A stretch of 64,000 bases of DNA from contig JAIELJ010000005.1 in assembly GCA_019753105.1 (NCBI GenBank), positions 124,001 through 188,000 on the forward strand, written 5' to 3'. Numbering within the stretch: the first letter of the stretch is position 1; each line of letters starts with the position of its first letter. This document shows positions 1,598-48,744 of this stretch, one piece after another. The DNA is from Hyphomonadaceae bacterium. GTDB lineage: Bacteria; Pseudomonadota; Alphaproteobacteria; Caulobacterales; Aquidulcibacteraceae. The notes under the pieces are model-generated. The model was not told the origin of the DNA. It was given only the letters and a program-made list of their open reading frames with translations, and made no database searches. Position numbers and translations under genes: made by a program.

Positions 1598-2496
1598 TCG
1601 CCCGGGCGCCAGCCGCTTGCCGCGAGGAAGGCGCGGGCGTCCGTGCCTTGCAGGATGTCGCGGATAGCTTGGCGCTTGTCGGGTGCGCGCTCGTAGTAGG
1701 CGCGCACGATGCGATAGCCGACCCAATAGCCGAGATCGCCGGGCGCTTCGCGCGTGCCGACGCCATTATAGAGCCATTGCGAAAGATCGCGGCTATCCAT
1801 ATTGGCGGCGAAGCGTTGTTCGATCTCGGCTTCGCGTCCGGCGGTCCAGTCGATGAGATGGTTGTTTGAGATGCGCCCTGTCATCAGTTCGGCGATGAAC
1901 TCGGCCGCACCCTCGTTGAGGGATTGAGAGAGCACCGTCTCGCCCGCGAAGCCGCTCTGCAGCGAATGCACCATTTCGTGCGCGATGATGTGGGTGAGGC
2001 GGATGTCGAGTTGCGCAGGATCGGGCGAGCCGGCGCGGCACATGACTTCGAGACCGATCATCAAGGCATCTGTGTTGGCCGTTCCGCCGGAAGTATCTGC
2101 GCCGATCAGGATGTAAGTCTGCGGATAGGTCGCTTCGGGATAGAGCGCTTCGAGCGCTAGGAACGCGGCGCGGACGCGGGCGCGCACGTCGCCGAGGTTC
2201 TGCGCGCAGGCGCGGGCGTCGCTGTAGATTTGCGGACGTTGCGCGATCCGCGCGGCTAAACGTTCCGCTGAGACGATGCGGTTCGGGATGAAGCCGCGCA
2301 CGCCAGCGCTGCCGTTGTCGATATAGGGCTGAAGCGCTGCTGCGTCGGGGCGGCCGCCTGCGGCGTCGTAGATGCGAAAGAAGGCGTCGACGTCAGCGGT
2401 TTCGATTCTGGCGTCGAGCGGATCGGCGGCGCGCTGCGCGTGGGCAGCTGTGGTCCCGGCGGCGAAGACGGCGGCGGCGATGAGAATGGTGCGCAT
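1594..2496 (-). CDS. Predicted secreted zinc metalloprotease (gluzincin-like)
   Basis: The ATG at 2496 is chosen because AGGAGGG lies just upstream and translation then begins with a signal peptide (MRTILIAAAVFAAGTTAAHA). The longer frame to 2598 would bury it. The mature protein carries HEMVH at residues 173-177, and NEGAAEF about 20 residues later supplies a probable third zinc ligand, the gluzincin layout seen in DUF2268-like peptidases. The product is 300 residues and probably periplasmic. Substrate unknown. It is divergent from the OYE gene; its own 5' region overlaps only spurious extensions of that gene. Zinc-protease fold is fairly sure, family membership less so. Confidence 0.7.
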   Translation of the reverse strand: MRTILIAAAVFAAGTTAAHAQRAADPLDARIETADVDAFFRIYDAAGGRPDAAALQPYIDNGSAGVRGFIPNRIVSAERLAARIAQRPQIYSDARACAQNLGDVRARVRAAFLALEALYPEATYPQTYILIGADTSGGTANTDALMIGLEVMCRAGSPDPAQLDIRLTHIIAHEMVHSLQSGFAGETVLSQSLNEGAAEFIAELMTGRISNNHLIDWTAGREAEIEQRFAANMDSRDLSQWLYNGVGTREAPGDLGYWVGYRIVRAYYERAPDKRQAIRDILQGTDARAFLAASGWRPGD

Positions 2497-2613
2497 GGGT
2501 CCCTCCTGTCCGTGGGATGCGGTGGGTCGCGCGGTTGGATGCGTTTCGGCAGAGTGGCGCTCGCGCCTTTGGTCTGTCAAAGCTCTGAGCGCCAACAAAT
2601 CGAGACCTCCACC

Positions 2614-3909
2614 ATGACCACTCCCGCATTCGCCGCGCCGCTTCAGTTGCCTAGCGAGACGTTGCCGAACCGTCTGGCGAAGGCGGCGATGACGGAAGGC
2701 ATGTCAGACCCTCAGGGGCGGCCATCGGATGATCTTGTGCGGCTCTATGAAAAGTGGGGGCGCGGTGGCGCGGGGTTGCTCATTAGCGGCAACGTGCCCG
2801 TTGATGCACATCACCTTGAGCGGCCCGGAAACGTCATCATCGCGGGCGTGCAGGATGATGCGGCGAAGGCAGCGTTGCGGCGCTTAGCGCAGGCGGCGCG
2901 GAGTGGCGGGGCCGGATTCTGGGTGCAGCTTAGTCATGCGGGACGGCAGACGCCCGCTTTGGTCAATCCGACACCGAAGGCGCCGTCGGCTGTGCCGTTG
3001 GCGTTGCCCGGCAAATTGTACGGCGTGCCCGTAGCGCTCACAGGCGTGGAGATCCGCGCAATCATCCAGGCGTTTGCGGACGCTGCCGCTGTGTGCCGCG
3101 AAGCAGGTTGCACCGGCGTGCAGATACACGGCGCGCACGGCTATCTTATTTCGCAATTCCTTTCGCCGCTTGCGAACAAGCGCGAGGATGAGTGGGGTGG
3201 CTCGCTTGAGAACCGCGCGCGTTTGCTACTGGAGATCGTGCGCACCACACGCGCTGCAGTGGGGCGCGATTTCACGCTCGCGGTGAAGCTTAACTCGGCC
3301 GACTTCCAGCGCGGCGGCTTTGCGCCGGGCGAGAGCATGCAGGTCGCGCAATGGCTGGAGGCGGAGGGCGTCGATCTGCTGGAAGTCTCCGGCGGCAATT
3401 ACGAGCAGCCGCGCATGATGAAGATGGAAGGGCTGGAAGCGGCCGATCTCAGCGGCCTGCCGCCTTCAACGGCGGCGCGGGAAGCATACTTCCTCGATTT
3501 TGCCGTCGAACTGCGCAAGCAGGTGAAGACGCCACTGATGGTGACGGGCGGGATGCGCTCAGCGGCGGCGATGAATGAGGCGATTGAGCGCGATGGTGTT
3601 GCGCTGATTGGCATCGGCCGTCCGATGGTGGTCGATCCGGATGCGCCGCAGCGTTTGCTTGAAGGTGCGGCGTCGCTGGATCGTTACGAAGAACGGCTGC
3701 GCTTGGGGCCGGGATTCTTCAGCCCGCGTTCCTCTTCGAAAACGATGCGGGCGCTGAACGGGTTCGGCGCGCTTTATTGGCAGTACCAACAATTGCGCCG
3801 CATTGGACGCGGGCAGGCGGCGGATATGAGACTTGGTCTGCTGAAGGCGCTGATGGCCGAGAGGCGTGAGCAAGAAGCCTGGATGGCGCGGCGCGGGGGT
3901 GGTGTGTGA
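2614..3909 (+). CDS. NADH:flavin oxidoreductase (Old Yellow Enzyme family)
   Basis: A 431-residue FMN TIM-barrel enzyme. The N-terminus NRLAKAAMTEGMSDPQGRPS, the segment IHGAHGYLISQFLSPLANKR near residue 170, GGSLENRARLLLEIV after it, and the C-terminal phosphate-binding part GIGRPMVVDPD are typical of the NADH:flavin oxidoreductase/NADH oxidase branch that reduces activated C=C bonds. The start at 2614 (MTTPAF) gives the normal family length; the longer frame from 2440 would run over the divergent protease gene's start. The stop overlaps the GTG start of the next FMN enzyme, so the two are probably made together. Natural substrate unknown. Confidence 0.85.
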   Translation: MTTPAFAAPLQLPSETLPNRLAKAAMTEGMSDPQGRPSDDLVRLYEKWGRGGAGLLISGNVPVDAHHLERPGNVIIAGVQDDAAKAALRRLAQAARSGGAGFWVQLSHAGRQTPALVNPTPKAPSAVPLALPGKLYGVPVALTGVEIRAIIQAFADAAAVCREAGCTGVQIHGAHGYLISQFLSPLANKREDEWGGSLENRARLLLEIVRTTRAAVGRDFTLAVKLNSADFQRGGFAPGESMQVAQWLEAEGVDLLEVSGGNYEQPRMMKMEGLEAADLSGLPPSTAAREAYFLDFAVELRKQVKTPLMVTGGMRSAAAMNEAIERDGVALIGIGRPMVVDPDAPQRLLEGAASLDRYEERLRLGPGFFSPRSSSKTMRALNGFGALYWQYQQLRRIGRGQAADMRLGLLKALMAERREQEAWMARRGGGV

Positions 3910-5100: not shown

Positions 5101-5130
5101 TTGACCGGCGCGCATCATCGCATCATATAC
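5101..5130 (+). promoter_or_regulatory. Candidate housekeeping promoter
   Basis: TTGACC at 5101-5106 is followed after about 18 bases by ATATAC at 5125-5130. This is a fair -35/-10 pair, 40 bases after the hydroxy-acid oxidase stop and about 180 bases before the terminator at 5308. It could drive a short transcript between the two. Assignment is by consensus only. Confidence 0.35.
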
Positions 5131-5345
5131 GCGGCCCTTCGCACGTGATTGTCGCGTGCGGGCAGAGTTGAGAACGATGAAGCGCGAGAGATTGAATTCG
5201 CAGCCAACGTGCACCGTCATTGAGCTATTTGCTCATGGCGTGGACGCACGCGCGCACAATCGTGGAGGCGAAATAGGTTAGTCCTGTTTCGAAGTGTTCG
5301 AGTTTCGAACCCCTCCCGAGCCTGACGCTCCGGAGGGGTTTTTGT
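5131..5345 (+). ncRNA. Possible small RNA or short leader between promoter and terminator
   Basis: About 210 bases lie between a promoter-like pair and a strong terminator. They contain only a 34-codon ATG frame (5177-5281, MKRERLNSQPTC...) with a poor ribosome site, and a small hairpin GTTCGA-gtt-TCGAAC near 5297. I do not recognise the RNA. It may simply be the 3' untranslated region of the upstream oxidase gene. Confidence 0.25.
5308..5344 (+). terminator. Intrinsic terminator before the Y RNA array
   Basis: AACCCCTCC (5308-5316) pairs with GGAGGGGTT (5332-5340) and is followed by a run of T. It separates the oxidase transcript from the Y RNA array. Confidence 0.8.
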
Positions 5346-5430: not shown

Positions 5431-5624
5431 GTTTGTCGGTGGTGAAGAGTACGGGTACTTCGTTCTGGATAAAGCGGGTTCGAATCCCGCCGGCTTCAGT
5501 CACGTACCGTGGAGGCGGCCTCACGAGGGCCGTCGTGTCGCGGGTTCGAGCACAGGCGTTCGCGTTTGGGTTCTGCGTTGATTGCGGTTTGGCAAAACCG
5601 TTCTCGAATTTTCCCCGACAAAAC
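5431..5624 (+). ncRNA. Y RNA-like gene, unit A (expanded)
   Basis: Unit A opens with GTTTGTC (5431-5437), then CGGTGGTGAAG. It closes with TTCCCCG (5611-5617) and GACAAAAC, so TTTGTC pairs with GACAAA as a terminal stem. GAG-t-ACGG (5447-5454) pairs with CCGT-t-CTC (5598-5605), continuing the helix. Inside is a perfect T-arm (GCGGG-TTCGAAT-CCCGC, 5474-5490). The next bases GGCTTCA can pair six of seven with TGGAGGC (5510-5516), an acceptor stem closed by a loop. No clear D-arm follows; instead there are extra hairpins, including one with a second GCGGGTTCGAG. At about 194 nt it is the longest unit. Y RNA assignment rests on shared motifs and the adjacent Ro gene. Confidence 0.65.
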
Positions 5625-5628
5625 AGCT

Positions 5629-5791
5629 GCCGATACGGTGGTGAAGAGATCTGTTACTTCGCTTAGGACGACGGTGTCGCGGGTTCGAATCCCGCCAGGT
5701 CCAACACTTGGGGGCCTGTAGCTCAGCCTGGTAGAGCACGTGCTGCCGCAAGGCAGCGTCTCAGATTTCGCCCGTTCCCCGGATCGGCTTT
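5629..5791 (+). ncRNA. Y RNA-like gene, unit B with permuted tRNA-like module
   Basis: The terminal stem is GCCGAT (5629-5634) with ATCGGC (5783-5788), followed by TTT. The motif CGGTGGTGAAG lies at 5636-5646 and TTCCCCG at 5775-5781. ATCTG (5649-5653) pairs with CAGAT (5762-5766). The central module runs in tRNA 3'-half then 5'-half order: T-arm GCGGG-TTCGAAT-CCCGC (5679-5695), acceptor strand AGGTCC (5697-5702), a loop, acceptor strand GGGCCT (5712-5717, one G-U pair), then a D-arm with GCTC (5721-5724) and GAGC (5734-5737). A GCAA-capped hairpin GCTGCC/GGCAGC (5742-5757) follows. This permuted layout matches what is known of the YrlA class of bacterial Y RNA. Confidence 0.75.
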
Positions 5792-5793
5792 CA

Positions 5794-5937
5794 GTTTGGC
5801 GGTGGTGAAGAATACGAGTGCATCGGTAAGAGCGCCGCATCCTTGATGCGGAGGTCGCGCGTTCGAGTCGCGCCGGGGCAACCCGTAGCTCAGTTGGCCC
5901 GCAAGGGACCTCGAGTTCGCTTTTTCCCCGCCAAAAC
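5794..5937 (+). ncRNA. Y RNA-like gene, unit C with GNRA-capped acceptor stem
   Basis: GTTTGGC (5794-5800) pairs with GCCAAAAC (5930-5937, one extra A). The motif is at 5800-5810 and TTCCCCG at 5924-5930. CGAG (5815-5818) pairs with CTCG (5910-5913). The module has the end of a D-arm (GGTAAGAGC), a long hairpin CCGCATC/GATGCGG in the anticodon-arm place, a T-arm (GCGCG-TTCGAGT-CGCGC, 5857-5873), and a short acceptor CGGG-gcaa-CCCG (5874-5885) closed by a GCAA tetraloop. It continues into GTAGCTCAGTTGG, a canonical D-arm start, then a second GCAA hairpin (CCC/GGG). The end of one RNA abuts the next: unit B stops about three bases earlier. Confidence 0.75.
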
Positions 5938-5948
5938 CCAAAATCTTC

Positions 5949-5967
5949 GCGGCGCGTCGCGCCGCGT
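5949..5967. repeat. Perfect hairpin between units C and D
   Basis: CGCGGCG pairs with CGCCGCG across a 5-base loop. There is no T run, so it is not a typical terminator; it could be a processing site or an insulator between RNA units. Confidence 0.4.
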
Positions 5968-5969
5968 GG

Positions 5970-6071
5970 CCAAGTCAATCGGTGGTGAAGACGTCCGCTA
6001 CTTCTTGAGGTGAAGCTCGACCCAAAGGGTCGAGATCGCGGAAGTTGAAGTGTTCCCCGGTTGACGCTTGG
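5970..6071 (+). ncRNA. Y RNA-like gene, unit D without a tRNA-like module
   Basis: CCAAG-TCAAT (5970-5979) pairs with GTTGA (6060-6064) and CTTGG (6067-6071), leaving two bulged bases. The motif CGGTGGTGAAG is at 5980-5990 and TTCCCCG at 6053-6059. TACTTC (5999-6004) pairs with GAAGTG (6047-6052). The centre is a simple perfect hairpin, CTCGACCC-aaa-GGGTCGAG (6016-6034), in place of T-arm, acceptor and D-arm. At about 102 nt it is the shortest unit. It keeps only the presumed Ro-binding helix, like the compact Y RNAs of animals. Confidence 0.65.
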
Positions 6072-6106
6072 ATTGACGAAATTTGGCGCGGTGAGCGTCA
6101 GATCGT

Positions 6107-6251
6107 GTCAGCCGGTGGTGAAGGGAGTCCGTTACTTCGACTCTTAATCGCGTGGTCGCGGGTTCGAGTCCCGCCAGGTCCAACACTGTGGACCTGTAGC
6201 TCAGTTGGATAGAGCACGAACGGTCCCGTATGTTCCCCGGGCTGACGTTTT
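6107..6251 (+). ncRNA. Y RNA-like gene, unit E with Lys-type anticodon loop
   Basis: GTCAGCC (6107-6113) pairs with GGCTGAC (6240-6246), followed by TTTT (6248-6251), so this unit may terminate itself. The motif is at 6113-6123 and TTCCCCG at 6233-6239. GGGA (6123-6126) pairs with TCCC (6224-6227) and CCGTT (6129-6133) with AACGG (6219-6223). The module contains a CTCTTAA loop (6141-6147, CTT in the anticodon position), T-arm GCGGG-TTCGAGT-CCCGC (6158-6174), a perfect seven-pair acceptor AGGTCCA/TGGACCT (6176-6182, 6189-6195) closed by a 6-base loop, and a D-arm GCTC/GAGC (6199-6215). The gene ends 37 bases before the Ro60-like ATG. Confidence 0.78.
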
Positions 6252-6288: not shown

Positions 6289-7608
6289 ATGGCGACGATT
6301 AACAAGGCCAAGAGCGTGCGCACGCACGAGGGCGCCAAGGGGCGCGCCTTTGCGCCGGAGCAGGAACTGCGCCGGGCGGTGATGAATTGCATGCTCTGGG
6401 AAGACCAGTTCTATGAAAGCGGCGTCGCCATCGGCGAACGCATCGGGCAACTTGTGCCGAAGGTGAAAGCCGAATTGGTTGCCGCGATCGCGATCGACGC
6501 GCGCGAGAAGATGAAGCTGCGCCACGCGCCGCTTTTGATCGTGCGCGAGATGGCGCGTCACGAGGGCCATAAGGCGCTCGTGGCCGACACGCTCGAACGC
6601 GTCATCCAACGTCCGGACGAACTGACCGAATTCCTCGCCATCTACTGGTCCGACGTGCTTGGCCCGATGAAGCAACGCAAAGCGCGTGCTCTGTCGGCGC
6701 AAGCCAAGAAAGGTCTGGCGCGGGCGTTCGCGAAGTTCGATGCCTACCAGCTGGCAAAGTACGATCGCGACGGCGCTGTGCGTCTGCGCGACGTCTTGTT
6801 CATTACGCACGCCAAACCGAAGGACGAGGCGCAAGCCAAAGTCTGGAAGCAGCTGGCGGAAGGTAAGCTGGCCGCGCCCGACACGTGGGAAGTCTCGCTC
6901 TCGGGCGGGGCCGATAAGCGCGAGACGTTCGAGCGCTTGATTGCCGAGAACAAGCTTGGCGCACTGGCCTTGCTGCGTAACCTGCGCGGCATGCAACTGG
7001 CCGGCGTGCCGAAGAAGACGATCGGCAAGGCGCTCGATGCGATGCGTACCGACCGTGTGTTGCCGTACCGCTTCATCGCGGCTGCGCAGCACGCGCCGGA
7101 CCTCGAACCCGAACTCGAACACGCCATGTTCCGTTCGATCGAGGGCCACGCCAAGCTCACGGGCAAGACGCGGCTCCTGGTCGACGTCTCGGGCTCGATG
7201 GACGGGCCGCTCTCGGCGCGTTCAGCGATGCGGCGTCTCGATGCTGCGTGTGGTCTTGCCGTGCTGGCGCGGGAGATCGGCGATGACGTCGAGGTGTTCA
7301 CGTTCTCCAACGCTGTGAAGAAAGTCCCGGCGCGCCGCGGCTTTGCGCTGCGCGATGCGATCGTGACCTCGCAGCCGCACGGTGGCACCGAACTCGGCAA
7401 GGCGATCCGTGAGGTCGACCAGAAGGGCGTGCGCTTAATCGTCTTTACCGACGAACAAAGCCACGACCGTGTCGATGCGCCGAAGGGCGTGGGCTACATG
7501 GTCAATGTCGCGTCGTACCAAAACGGCGTCGGCATTGGCGATTGGCGCCGTGTCGACGGCTTCTCGGAAAAGATCCTCGATTGGATCATTGCGTCCGAGC
7601 AGGACTAA
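6289..7608 (+). CDS. rsr: Ro60/Rsr homologue (TROVE and vWA domains)
   Basis: A 439-residue protein with an N-terminal TROVE (telomerase, Ro, vault) helical-repeat domain and a C-terminal von Willebrand A domain. The vWA metal site is intact: D299-V-S-G-S303, then GGTELGKAI and VFTDEQS. Bacterial Ro proteins bind Y RNAs and, in Deinococcus and Salmonella, work with exoribonucleases in rRNA maturation and RNA decay. Ro60 is usually near 530 residues, so this is a short version. No rtcB/rtcA ligase-cyclase genes, a common bacterial partner, are nearby; instead five Y RNA-like genes lie directly upstream on the same strand. The ATG at 6289 is preceded by AGGTGATGTGAG. Confidence 0.92.
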   Translation: MATINKAKSVRTHEGAKGRAFAPEQELRRAVMNCMLWEDQFYESGVAIGERIGQLVPKVKAELVAAIAIDAREKMKLRHAPLLIVREMARHEGHKALVADTLERVIQRPDELTEFLAIYWSDVLGPMKQRKARALSAQAKKGLARAFAKFDAYQLAKYDRDGAVRLRDVLFITHAKPKDEAQAKVWKQLAEGKLAAPDTWEVSLSGGADKRETFERLIAENKLGALALLRNLRGMQLAGVPKKTIGKALDAMRTDRVLPYRFIAAAQHAPDLEPELEHAMFRSIEGHAKLTGKTRLLVDVSGSMDGPLSARSAMRRLDAACGLAVLAREIGDDVEVFTFSNAVKKVPARRGFALRDAIVTSQPHGGTELGKAIREVDQKGVRLIVFTDEQSHDRVDAPKGVGYMVNVASYQNGVGIGDWRRVDGFSEKILDWIIASEQD

Positions 7609-47271: not shown

Positions 47272-48744
47272 TTAGCTTTTTTTGTTGCTTCCGGGAAGTC
47301 CCGGCAGGCCGCCGGGAAGCCCTGGAAGCCCAGATTGAGGGTTAAGACCGGGTAGGGGTTTGCCCGAACCGAGCTGTTTGAGTGCTTCCGGTGACGGCAT
47401 ACCGCCACCAGGCATGCCTGGCATGCCGAAGGGCATTTTTCCCTTACCCATGGCCTTGGCCATGTCGGACATGTTCCGGTGCATCTTGAGGAGGCGGTTG
47501 ACCTCCGCGACCTCGACGCCCGCGCCTTTGGCGATGCGGGCGCGGCGCTTGCCGTTCAGCAGGTCGGGTTTTGACCGCTCGGCCTTGGTCATCGAGCGGA
47601 TGATGGCGATCTGGCGGTGGACCTGTTTGTCGTCAAGCGCGGAGTCCGCGATCTGGTTTTTCATCTTCTGGACGCCGGGCAACATGCCCATGACGCCCTT
47701 CAGCCCGCCGATCTGAATGATCTGCGCCAGCTGCTTTTCCATGTCGTCGAAGTCGAACTTGCCCTTGGCCAGCTTCTTGGCGAGCTTTTCGTTCTCTTCA
47801 CGGTCGGCGGATTCAACGGCCTTCTCAACGAGGCCGACAATATCGCCTTGGCCGAGGATGCGCCCGGCGATGCGGCGGGCGTCGAACACTTCGAGCGCTT
47901 CGGCGCGTTCGCCGGCGCCGAGGAACTTGATCGGCAGGCCTGTGACCGAGCGCATCGAGAGCGCTGCACCGCCGCGTCCGTCGCCATCAGCGCGGGTGAG
48001 CACGAGCCCGGTCAGCGGCAGGCGCTCGTGGAAGCGCTTGGCGGTTTCGACCGCGTCTTGACCGGTGAGACTATCGGCGACCAACAGCACTTCGTTCGGC
48101 TTGGCGATGCTGGCGATCGAAGCCGCTTCGGCCATTAATTCTTCGTCGAGCGTCGTGCGGCCGGCGGTGTCGAGGATAAGAACGTCGTGGCCCGATTGGC
48201 GCGCCGTGGTGAGCGCGCGCCTGGCGATGTCTTGCGGTGTTTGGCCGGCAACGATCGGCAGCACATCGACGCCGATAGTCTTGCCGAGCGTGACCAGCTG
48301 TTCCATCGCCGCTGGGCGGCGGGTGTCGAGCGAGGCCATCAGAACGCGCTTTTTGTCCGTTTTCGTCAGACGCAGCGCGATTTTGGCGGCGGTGGTGGTT
48401 TTGCCCGAACCTTGAAGGCCGGCCATCATGATGACGTTCGGCGGCTCGCCATTAATGCGCAGACCTTCCGGCGCGCCGTCGCCGCCAAGCGTCTCGACCA
48501 GAGCGTCATAGACGATCTTGATGACCTGTTGGCCTGGCTTCACCGCCTTGATGACGTTTTCGCCGACCGCCTCAAGCCGCACCTTGGCGATGAAATCCTT
48601 CACCACCGGCAGCGCGACGTCGGCCTCCAGAAGCGCCACGCGCACCTCGCGCAGCGCCGCATCGACGTCCGCTTCACTGAGCGCGCCGCGCCCGGTGAGC
48701 TTGTCGAAGACGCCGCCAAGGCGTTCTGTTAGGGCCTCAAACAA
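47272..48744 (-). CDS. ffh: Signal recognition particle protein Ffh
   Basis: A 490-residue SRP54 GTPase. N domain [21 protein letters not shown]1 [15 protein letters not shown] near 105, [23 protein letters not shown], and a Met-rich M domain ending in a Gly/Pro/Met tail. No ATG is available. A TTG at 48750 touches the AAGGAG, so the TTG at 48744 ([12 protein letters not shown]), six bases after AAGGAG, is the better start and matches the family N-terminus. It works with FtsY, encoded 5 kb away on the same strand. Confidence 0.95.

Follow-up and report, generated by a model that had tools for sequence, protein, structure and literature searches.

Five putative Y RNA genes of several kinds and an attenuator-like leader upstream of a Ro60 homologue in a Hyphomonadaceae bacterium

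We describe a locus in the genome of a Hyphomonadaceae bacterium (assembly GCA_019753105.1, contig JAIELJ010000005.1) where five units resembling Y RNA genes, all on one strand, occupy positions 5431-6246 directly upstream of rsr, a gene for a TROVE/Ro60 homologue (6289-7608). Positions are those of the window, i.e., the whole stretch of 64,000 nucleotides that was analysed (contig positions 124,001 to 188,000, forward strand), and the genome that contains it has 3.87 Mb. A preliminary description made from the letters of the sequence had claimed such an array beside a Ro60 homologue, and our analysis confirms it. The units, which are sorted below into types A, B, C and E (names coined in this analysis), and the gene behind them are as follows.

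5431..5623, + strand: Y RNA unit 1, type C, with a T-arm-like hairpin and the conserved segment GUACCGUGGAG
5630..5787, + strand: Y RNA unit 2, type A, with a YrlA-like permuted tRNA module and an extra hairpin (Rfam model RF02553, 45 bits, E 1.3e-8)
5794..5936, + strand: Y RNA unit 3, type B, with a tRNA core permuted in the D loop (RF02553, 29.1 bits)
5974..6065, + strand: Y RNA unit 4, type E, with a plain hairpin insert and no tRNA-like part seen
6107..6246, + strand: Y RNA unit 5, type A, with a YrlA-like permuted tRNA module (RF02553, 47.5 bits, E 2.7e-9)
6289..7608, + strand: rsr, TROVE/Ro60 homologue of 439 amino acids (TROVE match and profile of homologues)

Including the outer stems, units 1-5 are 193, 158, 143, 92 and 140 bases long. 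Every unit carries an exact copy of the 10-base core GGTGGTGAAG (at 5438, 5637, 5801, 5981 and 6114, + strand), and a C precedes all five copies, which completes the 11-base motif of the preliminary description. The whole window holds six copies of the core vs 0.05 expected, a number reached in none of 100 shuffles; the sixth exact copy lies outside the array, at 48598-48607 on the - strand. The second motif reported for the units, TTCCCCG, was likewise found exactly, at 5611, 5775, 5924, 6053 and 6233. The heptamer alone is not enriched (9 in the window vs 8.67 expected); all five of its + strand copies lie inside the array, one behind each 5' motif.

Read from the sequences, CGG-U-GG and CCCCG form a helix with one bulged U that adjoins an outer stem of unit-specific sequence. 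As had been proposed, the outer flanks pair within each unit, with 6-7 of 7 pairs in all five when G-U and one offset base are allowed. The true partners in the window form 32 of 35 pairs, which was reached by 1 of 120 permutations (the true assignment only). The expected covariation of this stem in relatives was also borne out, in that at least 6 of 7 own outer pairs form in 74 of 212 units, compared to a mean of 16.3 and a maximum of 27 in 200 partner shuffles. These 212 units come from 68 named loci together with G000 (the window's genome) and G012, and were defined by motif adjacency, not by pairing; the unit script mis-joined some of them (e.g., one in G012), which lowered the observed pairing count. 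The units have two of the features that mark a bacterial Y RNA, namely a place beside a TROVE/Rsr gene and ends paired in a stem with a conserved bulged part, and the stem with its bulged U would be of the kind that binds Rsr.

The identity of the neighbouring gene as a Ro60 homologue, proposed earlier from its reading frame, is supported by the protein models. The product matches TROVE (PF05731) with 6.4e-16 and 59 bits over residues 193-280, above the Pfam cut-off of 23, and has the vWA-like C-terminus expected of Ro60/Rsr, where two vWA models give 20.6 and 23.8 bits, under their cut-offs of 27.7 and 27. Solved protein chains were also reached with a single profile built from 13 homologues: two that are named TROVE domain-containing protein (9l5y, 9.8e-39; 9kop, 9.9e-39), RO60 (9nen, 2.2e-5) and Rsr (2nvo, 0.0022). 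Among the named genomes, the nearest Rsr proteins are those of Hyphomonadaceae/Terricaulis metagenome-assembled genomes.

The preliminary description had considered an array of five units unusual, a view that needs correction. In the best 80 of 215 confirmed rsr loci of the named genome collection, copies of the 5' motif with no more than one mismatch number 264 upstream of rsr and 12 on the opposite strand. Arrays are therefore common in this Rsr clade, and the predicted association of the units with TROVE genes stands, as relatives keep the array beside rsr. There are about 4 motif sites per locus in Bradyrhizobium and 4-8, a few of them far from the array, in the Hyphomonadaceae loci with enough upstream sequence, where up to 7 paired units occur. 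Read by eye, the order of Hyphomonadaceae units is similar: a short first unit, C (unit 1), A (unit 2), a double-hairpin type that is not in the window, B (unit 3), E (unit 4) and a last A (unit 5). In Acidobacteria the motif sites are fewer and more dispersed; acidobacterial loci such as L103 and L107 show candidate Y-like units over up to ~3.6 kb upstream of rsr. L028, L032, L058 and G012 each have, between their last two units, a short perfect hairpin, TTGGCGGTGGTGACCGCCAA, which is perhaps what is left of a unit; a degenerate counterpart lies near window positions 6085-6102.

On their sequences, the five units are distinct paralogues, not variants of one RNA: the terminal stem is common to them and the inserts are of several kinds. 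Searches of the window gave no Rfam match at gathering scores and no tRNA call by ARAGORN. The two type A units resemble YrlA, which has been described as a circularly permuted tRNA (PMC11472068) with D, T and acceptor arms (PMC8394870), as far as the excerpts of these papers go. The permuted module of T arm, acceptor and D arm is present in units 2 and 5, unit 3 has another permutation, and units 1 and 4 are unmatched. With the Rfam YrlA model RF02553, unit 5 scores 47.5 bits, unit 2 scores 45 and unit 3 gives a weak 29.1; because even the best score is below the curated 69, we do not file the units under this family. The matches in units 2 and 5 are confined to model positions 23-85 of 114, which is the tRNA-like part, and their terminal stem sequence is not of the YrlA type. 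A strict script found a T arm, an acceptor-like stem and a D arm in 66 of the 212 units, several of them doubtful (acceptor score 4), and misses diverged modules. When thirty units chosen from these 66 were aligned, they gave a common fold made up of a closing stem, the T arm, an acceptor hairpin and the D arm, in which 13 of the 19 pairs are changed on both sides.

In some type A modules (L034, L036 and L041) the acceptor strands are joined by a loop that contains CCACCA, as at the 3' end of a tRNA, a hint that these modules arose from tandem tRNA genes. By eye, some modules in the arrays of L041 and L042 have Leu-like or Glu-like D arms, and a tRNA-Gln-like sequence lies between the array and rsr in L042. 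A further resemblance to tRNA occurs in unit 5 of the window.

6138..6150, + strand: anticodon-loop look-alike CGACUCUUAAUCG in unit 5, of which GACTCTTAATC is common with the host tRNA-Lys(CUU)

The corresponding element, CGACUNUUAAUCG, which resembles an anticodon loop, is present at these window positions and in the last units of L028, L032, L058 and G012; its N makes it, depending on the species, like Lys(CUU), Asn(GUU) or Lys(UUU). It is not found in the last units of others, e.g., L029.

Unit 3 is, judged by its sequence, a tRNA opened in the D loop with the anticodon arm kept, and would extend tRNA mimicry in Y RNAs to more than one topology.

5830..5891, + strand: tRNA core of unit 3, with D-stem 3' strand GAGC (5830-5833), anticodon arm (5835-5851), T arm (5857-5873), acceptor-like hairpin and D-stem 5' strand GCUC (5888-5891)

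The order of its parts is the D-stem 3' strand, a hairpin in the place of the anticodon arm, the variable loop AGGTC, the T arm, the acceptor hairpin, UA, and the D-stem 5' strand. Over five species, 95.1% of the pair cells of the whole structure are formed, compared to at most 45.3% with the partners slid, and seven pairs are changed on both sides vs a shuffled mean of 2.3, four of the seven in the anticodon arm. The number of further pair types is not above that of shuffles (293 of 500 reach it). The arm in the anticodon place has a loop of 3-5 bases, not 7, in four of the five species, and that of the window reads two ways, as 7 bp with a 3-base loop or as 5 bp with a 7-base loop. When the five units are un-permuted, ARAGORN calls two of them tRNA, compared to none of the five as encoded and none of 250 shuffles; this gives partial support, the window's own unit not being one of the two called. 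A covariance model of the five type B units gave five further candidates of 62-77 bits, one of which, L085, is actually type A by the type A script. A pattern script listed 8 of the 212 units (control 17 of 2560), among which L049 and L051 were discounted, their GAGC sitting in the terminal stem. The pattern script also places type B in Bradyrhizobium L057, and inspection by eye places it in L039 and L075 (Acidobacteriaceae).

Type C units have in common the segments GUACCGUGGAG and GACGCGGG, with changes, from Hyphomonadaceae to Bradyrhizobium. None of the Rfam models supplies a family that explains unit 1, and its folding as a single sequence is unremarkable (z -1.46; 15 of 200 shuffles fold equally well).

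Upstream of the array, and outside the interval of the preliminary description, lies a leader (5101-5344) whose ORF (open reading frame), hairpins and terminator can be read as follows.

5101..5129, + strand: promoter-like pair TTGACC-17-CATATA (boxes aligned across leaders)
5177..5281, + strand: leader ORF of 34 codons, MKRERLNSQPTCTVIELFAHGVDARAHNRGGEIG and stop (in-frame ATG test)
5260..5268, + strand: antiterminator strand UCGUGGAGG (predicted pairing in nascent RNA with the 5' arm of the terminator; 8 pairs in the window)
5270..5290, + strand: hairpin GAAAUAGG-UUAGU-CCUGUUUC with the stop codon in its loop (covariation over 29 leaders)
5296..5310, + strand: second leader hairpin GUUCGA..UCGAAC (predicted fold of the window leader; alignment by eye)
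5310..5344, + strand: intrinsic terminator CCCCUCC-C-GAGC..GCUC-C-GGAGGGG-UUUUU (all 29 leaders keep all 10 of the pairs counted)

The leader alignment has 29 rows, one of them truncated, and spans Hyphomonadaceae, Bradyrhizobium and further Alphaproteobacteria. Thirteen more Bradyrhizobium-type leaders, presumed to be close copies, were left out (L049, L050, L054, L056, L060, L062, L063, L065, L066, L070, L071, L072 and L076). The ORF is present in all 13 Hyphomonadaceae leaders, as is a terminator whose arms, CCCCTCC and GGAGGGG, do not vary; the promoter-like TTGAC/CATA boxes, which are of the TTGAC type, are aligned in 12 of them, the thirteenth (G016) ending at a contig edge. The stop codon lies in the loop region of a 7-bp hairpin in all 29 leaders, and six of the seven pairs of this hairpin are changed on both sides. 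Stop hairpin and terminator jointly contain 50 cells with both sides changed vs 20.6 in shuffles, and 96.3% of their pairs are formed vs 86.2%; neither value was reached by any of 500 shuffles, and the same holds for further pair types and the covariation score. An ATG 30-35 codons upstream of the loop stop, with the frame open between them, occurs in 28 of 28 complete leaders and in 0 of 28 in each other frame, where the range was fixed after seeing the data and the leader sequences are related.

The terminator arm also has an alternative partner. In minimum free energy (MFE) folds of the nascent RNA, taken as far as the terminator loop, 28 of 29 leaders have an antiterminator of 7 or more pairs, compared to 139 of 580 with the strand shuffled, and in MFE folds of the full RNA the terminator is folded in 26 of 29. 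By eye, the base between CCUCC and GAG, which faces an unpaired C, is A and not C in L028 and L032, whose antiterminator offers U; in the rows of L014 and L038 neither partner is clearly offered. At the level of sequence and predicted fold, the leader thus has the parts of an attenuator, i.e., an ORF upstream of a terminator with a mutually exclusive antiterminator.

Related leaders occur elsewhere, as detected with a leader model, R1, that was built from rsr leaders alone, leaders of genes for MATE transporters being kept out. In the own genome the rsr leader scores 90.4 bits and its reverse strand 22.8, and the best other place found lies before rtcB (22.8 bits, C2:338343-338436; 150 of 2099 first-look candidates scored). 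Strong matches (76-100 bits) were found in 12 of 150 relatives, own genome counted, under stricter filters and with at most 26 candidates scored per genome, and 11 of them have a Y array and rsr. In the remaining genome, G014 (C150), a leader of 92 bits lies near base 3066 on the reverse strand, and the sequence read behind it contains neither a Y unit nor rsr; the array was possibly lost, moved or mis-assembled. There are 11 weaker matches (31-46 bits) in relatives, five before rtcB and two before MATE genes. A sense-strand match lies ~55-325 bases upstream of rtcB in all 34 loci scanned, which were drawn from 65 genomes with an rtcB match. Among 28 sources scanned with R1, an array-side match was found in the window and in L040, L042-L046, L052, L070 and L074; the other 18 gave none, some for want of upstream sequence. 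Seven loci (L039-L041, L043-L045 and L052) have a second match downstream of rsr, and a MatE gene follows it in all three loci read (L041, L043 and L044). In a class-wide sample of 289 genomes R1 matched in five, own genome counted, including G153, where the array leader is accompanied by another leader before a MatE gene.

The rtcB genes pass the Pfam RtcB model and fall under the curated cut-offs of the NCBIfam RtcB models. In L043 and L044 rtcB lies directly behind rsr, and at G015:C1:81907-83101 (- strand) the rtcB match behind the leader is split in two overlapping pieces in different frames. In the own genome, tRNA genes follow rtcB.

G000:C2:334500-339500, local 581-2227, - strand: six tRNA genes behind rtcB (rtcB at local 2333-3520, - strand)

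These six, Asp GTC, Gln TTG, Tyr GTA, an 87-base tRNA with CAT, Pro CGG and Glu TTC, each have another gene elsewhere with the same anticodon and are all among the 17 lowest of 52 tRNA scores. From one to six tRNA genes lie downstream of rtcB in 11 of 14 loci examined. Such divergent tRNAs are possibly a stress set or a nuclease-resistant set.

We consider it probable that the locus makes five Y RNAs with Rsr-binding stems and different inserts, together with Rsr, under leader attenuation in a translation-stress regulon. The Y RNAs and Rsr would come from one transcription unit, in which the promoter is followed by the leader with its 34-codon ORF, and attenuation probably governs their expression. 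If a ribosome translates through to the stop codon in the hairpin loop, it would mask the antiterminator strand, and RNA polymerase would halt at 5339-5344; a ribosome stalled earlier would leave that strand free to pair with the 5' arm of the terminator, and the array and rsr would be transcribed. The inducing signal is likely a general slowing of translation, because the leader peptide is not conserved. With the known tRNA mimic in units 2 and 5, a second mimic in unit 3 and other domains in units 1 and 4, the inserts might tether one Rsr ring to several partners or let it present several tRNA-like faces. PNPase is a candidate partner of the tRNA-like inserts by extrapolation from the published excerpts on YrlA and the RYPER machine (PMC8394870, PMC4726728). 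Since related leaders stand before rtcB, often with extra tRNAs, and before some MATE transporter genes, Ro/Y ribonucleoproteins (RNPs), RNA ligase, spare tRNAs and exporter appear to form one translation-stress regulon, and the Ro/Y RNPs would belong to the response to translation and tRNA damage. A wider conjecture, which we offer tentatively and regard as slightly more doubtful than credible, is that Alphaproteobacteria have a translation-damage regulon without a protein regulator. In it, one class of leader-ORF attenuator would let stalled ribosomes switch on Rsr and decoding-dead tRNA mimics in two circular permutations, RtcB with divergent spare tRNAs, and a MATE exporter; the Y RNAs would offer tRNA faces to enzymes that handle or cut tRNA while Rsr and PNPase clear broken RNA.

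Several observations weigh against this interpretation. A generic promoter scan called nothing at the leader, its terminator count is near chance (5 vs 3.4), and the number of stop-hairpin pairs changed on both sides (6) is matched by 57 of 500 shuffles. The leader peptide is weakly conserved, with pairwise differences among nine leaders numbering 470, 473 and 510 at the first, second and third codon positions, so that amino-acid-specific stalling is unsupported; in combination with the fixed ATG, this suggests that the position of translation, not the peptide, is kept. The system is dispensable, as rsr is present in only 14 of 150 relatives searched (own genome counted). At a permissive E up to 1, the YrlA model matches in 13 of 14 control genomes, none above the cut-off. 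R1 matched neither in the three genomes whose Rsr is more distant (G055, G110 and G132) nor in nine acidobacterial rsr loci and two others, L085 and L089, so the leader is not part of every array. Four of the 11 weak matches in relatives are not before rtcB or MATE genes, three of the four other genomes matched in the class-wide sample look unrelated, and an independent scan of 30 rtcB loci found 19 in which an ORF stops 29-48 bases short of a CCCTCC- or CCCCTTCC-type terminator. The rtcB leaders reach just 17-35 bits with R1 (E up to 0.084). These low scores, the unrelated loci among weak matches and the scoring of a part of the first-look candidates per genome would fit a regulon link that is an artefact, produced by the many alphaproteobacterial CCCTCC..GGAGGG terminators that score with R1. 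We regard this as rather remote, given that only the rsr and rtcB leaders, with the reverse strand of each, were found above 21 bits in the own genome, and that seven of the 11 weak matches in relatives lie before rtcB or MATE genes.

Remoter still, in our judgment, is the idea that only one or two units work as Y RNAs and that the others, which merely happened to be retained between the promoter and rsr, are duplicates in decay or debris of tRNA genes. The strong differences in length and insert, the incomplete element with the same motif that precedes the final unit and follows the one before it in four relatives, and the leader of G014 with no array in the stretch read would all suit such decay, but all five units pair in their own stems, the types recur in similar order across species (read by eye) and double-sided changes preserve pairs in types A and B. 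As to the leader, it could be a pure RNA element (a riboswitch or protein-binding site), as its strong covariation and weakly conserved peptide would allow, or a free-standing small gene whose terminator simply ends an independent small RNA or small ORF transcript; the ORF would then not be what is sensed. We find this improbable in view of the ATG at 30-35 codons without a stop (28 of 28 vs 0 of 28 in other frames), the stop codon in the hairpin loop region of all 29 leaders, the alternative pairing of the terminator arm and the recurrence of ORF and terminator before rtcB in 19 of 30 loci. The alternative that the tRNA-like units serve anticodon nucleases or tRNA-processing enzymes as decoys or guarded substrates, and do not tether an exonuclease, is unlikely but deserves more weight. 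It draws on the several tRNA faces per array, the anticodon-loop look-alike in unit 5, the related leader before rtcB with extra divergent tRNAs, and the nuclease inhibition raised for YrlA in the excerpts of a Salmonella study (PMC7790460); the same excerpts report that no YrlA fragments were detected, units 1 and 4 are without such a face, and the type B arms have short loops and not 7-base anticodon loops in four of five species.

If co-expression of several Y RNAs with Rsr under attenuation is the right account, the related leader, which ties rtcB, extra tRNAs and an exporter to the Ro/Y RNPs, bears on the role of bacterial Ro60 and Y RNAs. A cell with an array of paralogous Y RNAs would be able to swap effectors on one Rsr, and the proposal that translation stress induces Ro/Y RNA is directly testable in culturable Bradyrhizobium.

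Bacterial Y RNAs are reportedly widespread, with at least one tRNA-like Y RNA per species, in the survey by Chen et al. 2014 (RNA). That bacterial Y RNAs lie beside rsr and mimic tRNA is already known. In the portions of the open-licence PMC literature covered, we met no text on arrays this large, on D-loop permutation or on a leader attenuator before rsr or rtcB, and the regulatory layer, i.e., the leader, may be new. YrlA, as excerpted (PMC8394870, PMC11472068), also lies beside rsr and has a closed terminal stem and a circularly permuted D/T/acceptor module; unlike YrlA, the present locus has five units with different inserts, another terminal stem sequence and scores under the Rfam cut-off, and unit 3 is opened in the D loop and retains an anticodon arm. 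The Rsr-Y RNA-PNPase machine (RYPER) of D. radiodurans likewise combines a TROVE protein with a neighbouring Y RNA and has a tether model (PMC4726728, in part), whereas here there are many units and tRNA-like inserts of two topologies, known from sequence. The vertebrate set (Y1, Y3, Y4, Y5) resembles this array in having several Y RNAs per Ro60, although bacterial Y RNAs are described as non-homologous with vertebrate Y RNAs (excerpt of PMC4726728).

The comparison extends to regulation. According to the sections available of the Salmonella study (PMC7790460), tRNA fragments activate rsr-yrlBA-rtcBA via RtcR, with rtcB in the rsr operon, much as rtcB directly follows rsr in L043 and L044; for the present locus, in contrast, we predict control by a leader attenuator. 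Among resistance genes, mef(E)/mel is an example with a leader-peptide attenuator, and attenuation of an efflux operon is what it has in common with our proposal (PMC4335068, as excerpted); the proposal differs in that an RNA ligase, a Ro60 homologue and noncoding RNAs are involved. In the excerpted account of Anabaena (PMC10272220), the TrcR regulon resembles the one proposed here in placing rtcB, extra tRNAs (a trn operon of 26) and an exporter under one control, and trn and other TrcR targets are induced by translation inhibitors; TrcR is a DNA-binding repressor, whereas here leader attenuators are predicted and Y RNAs are present.

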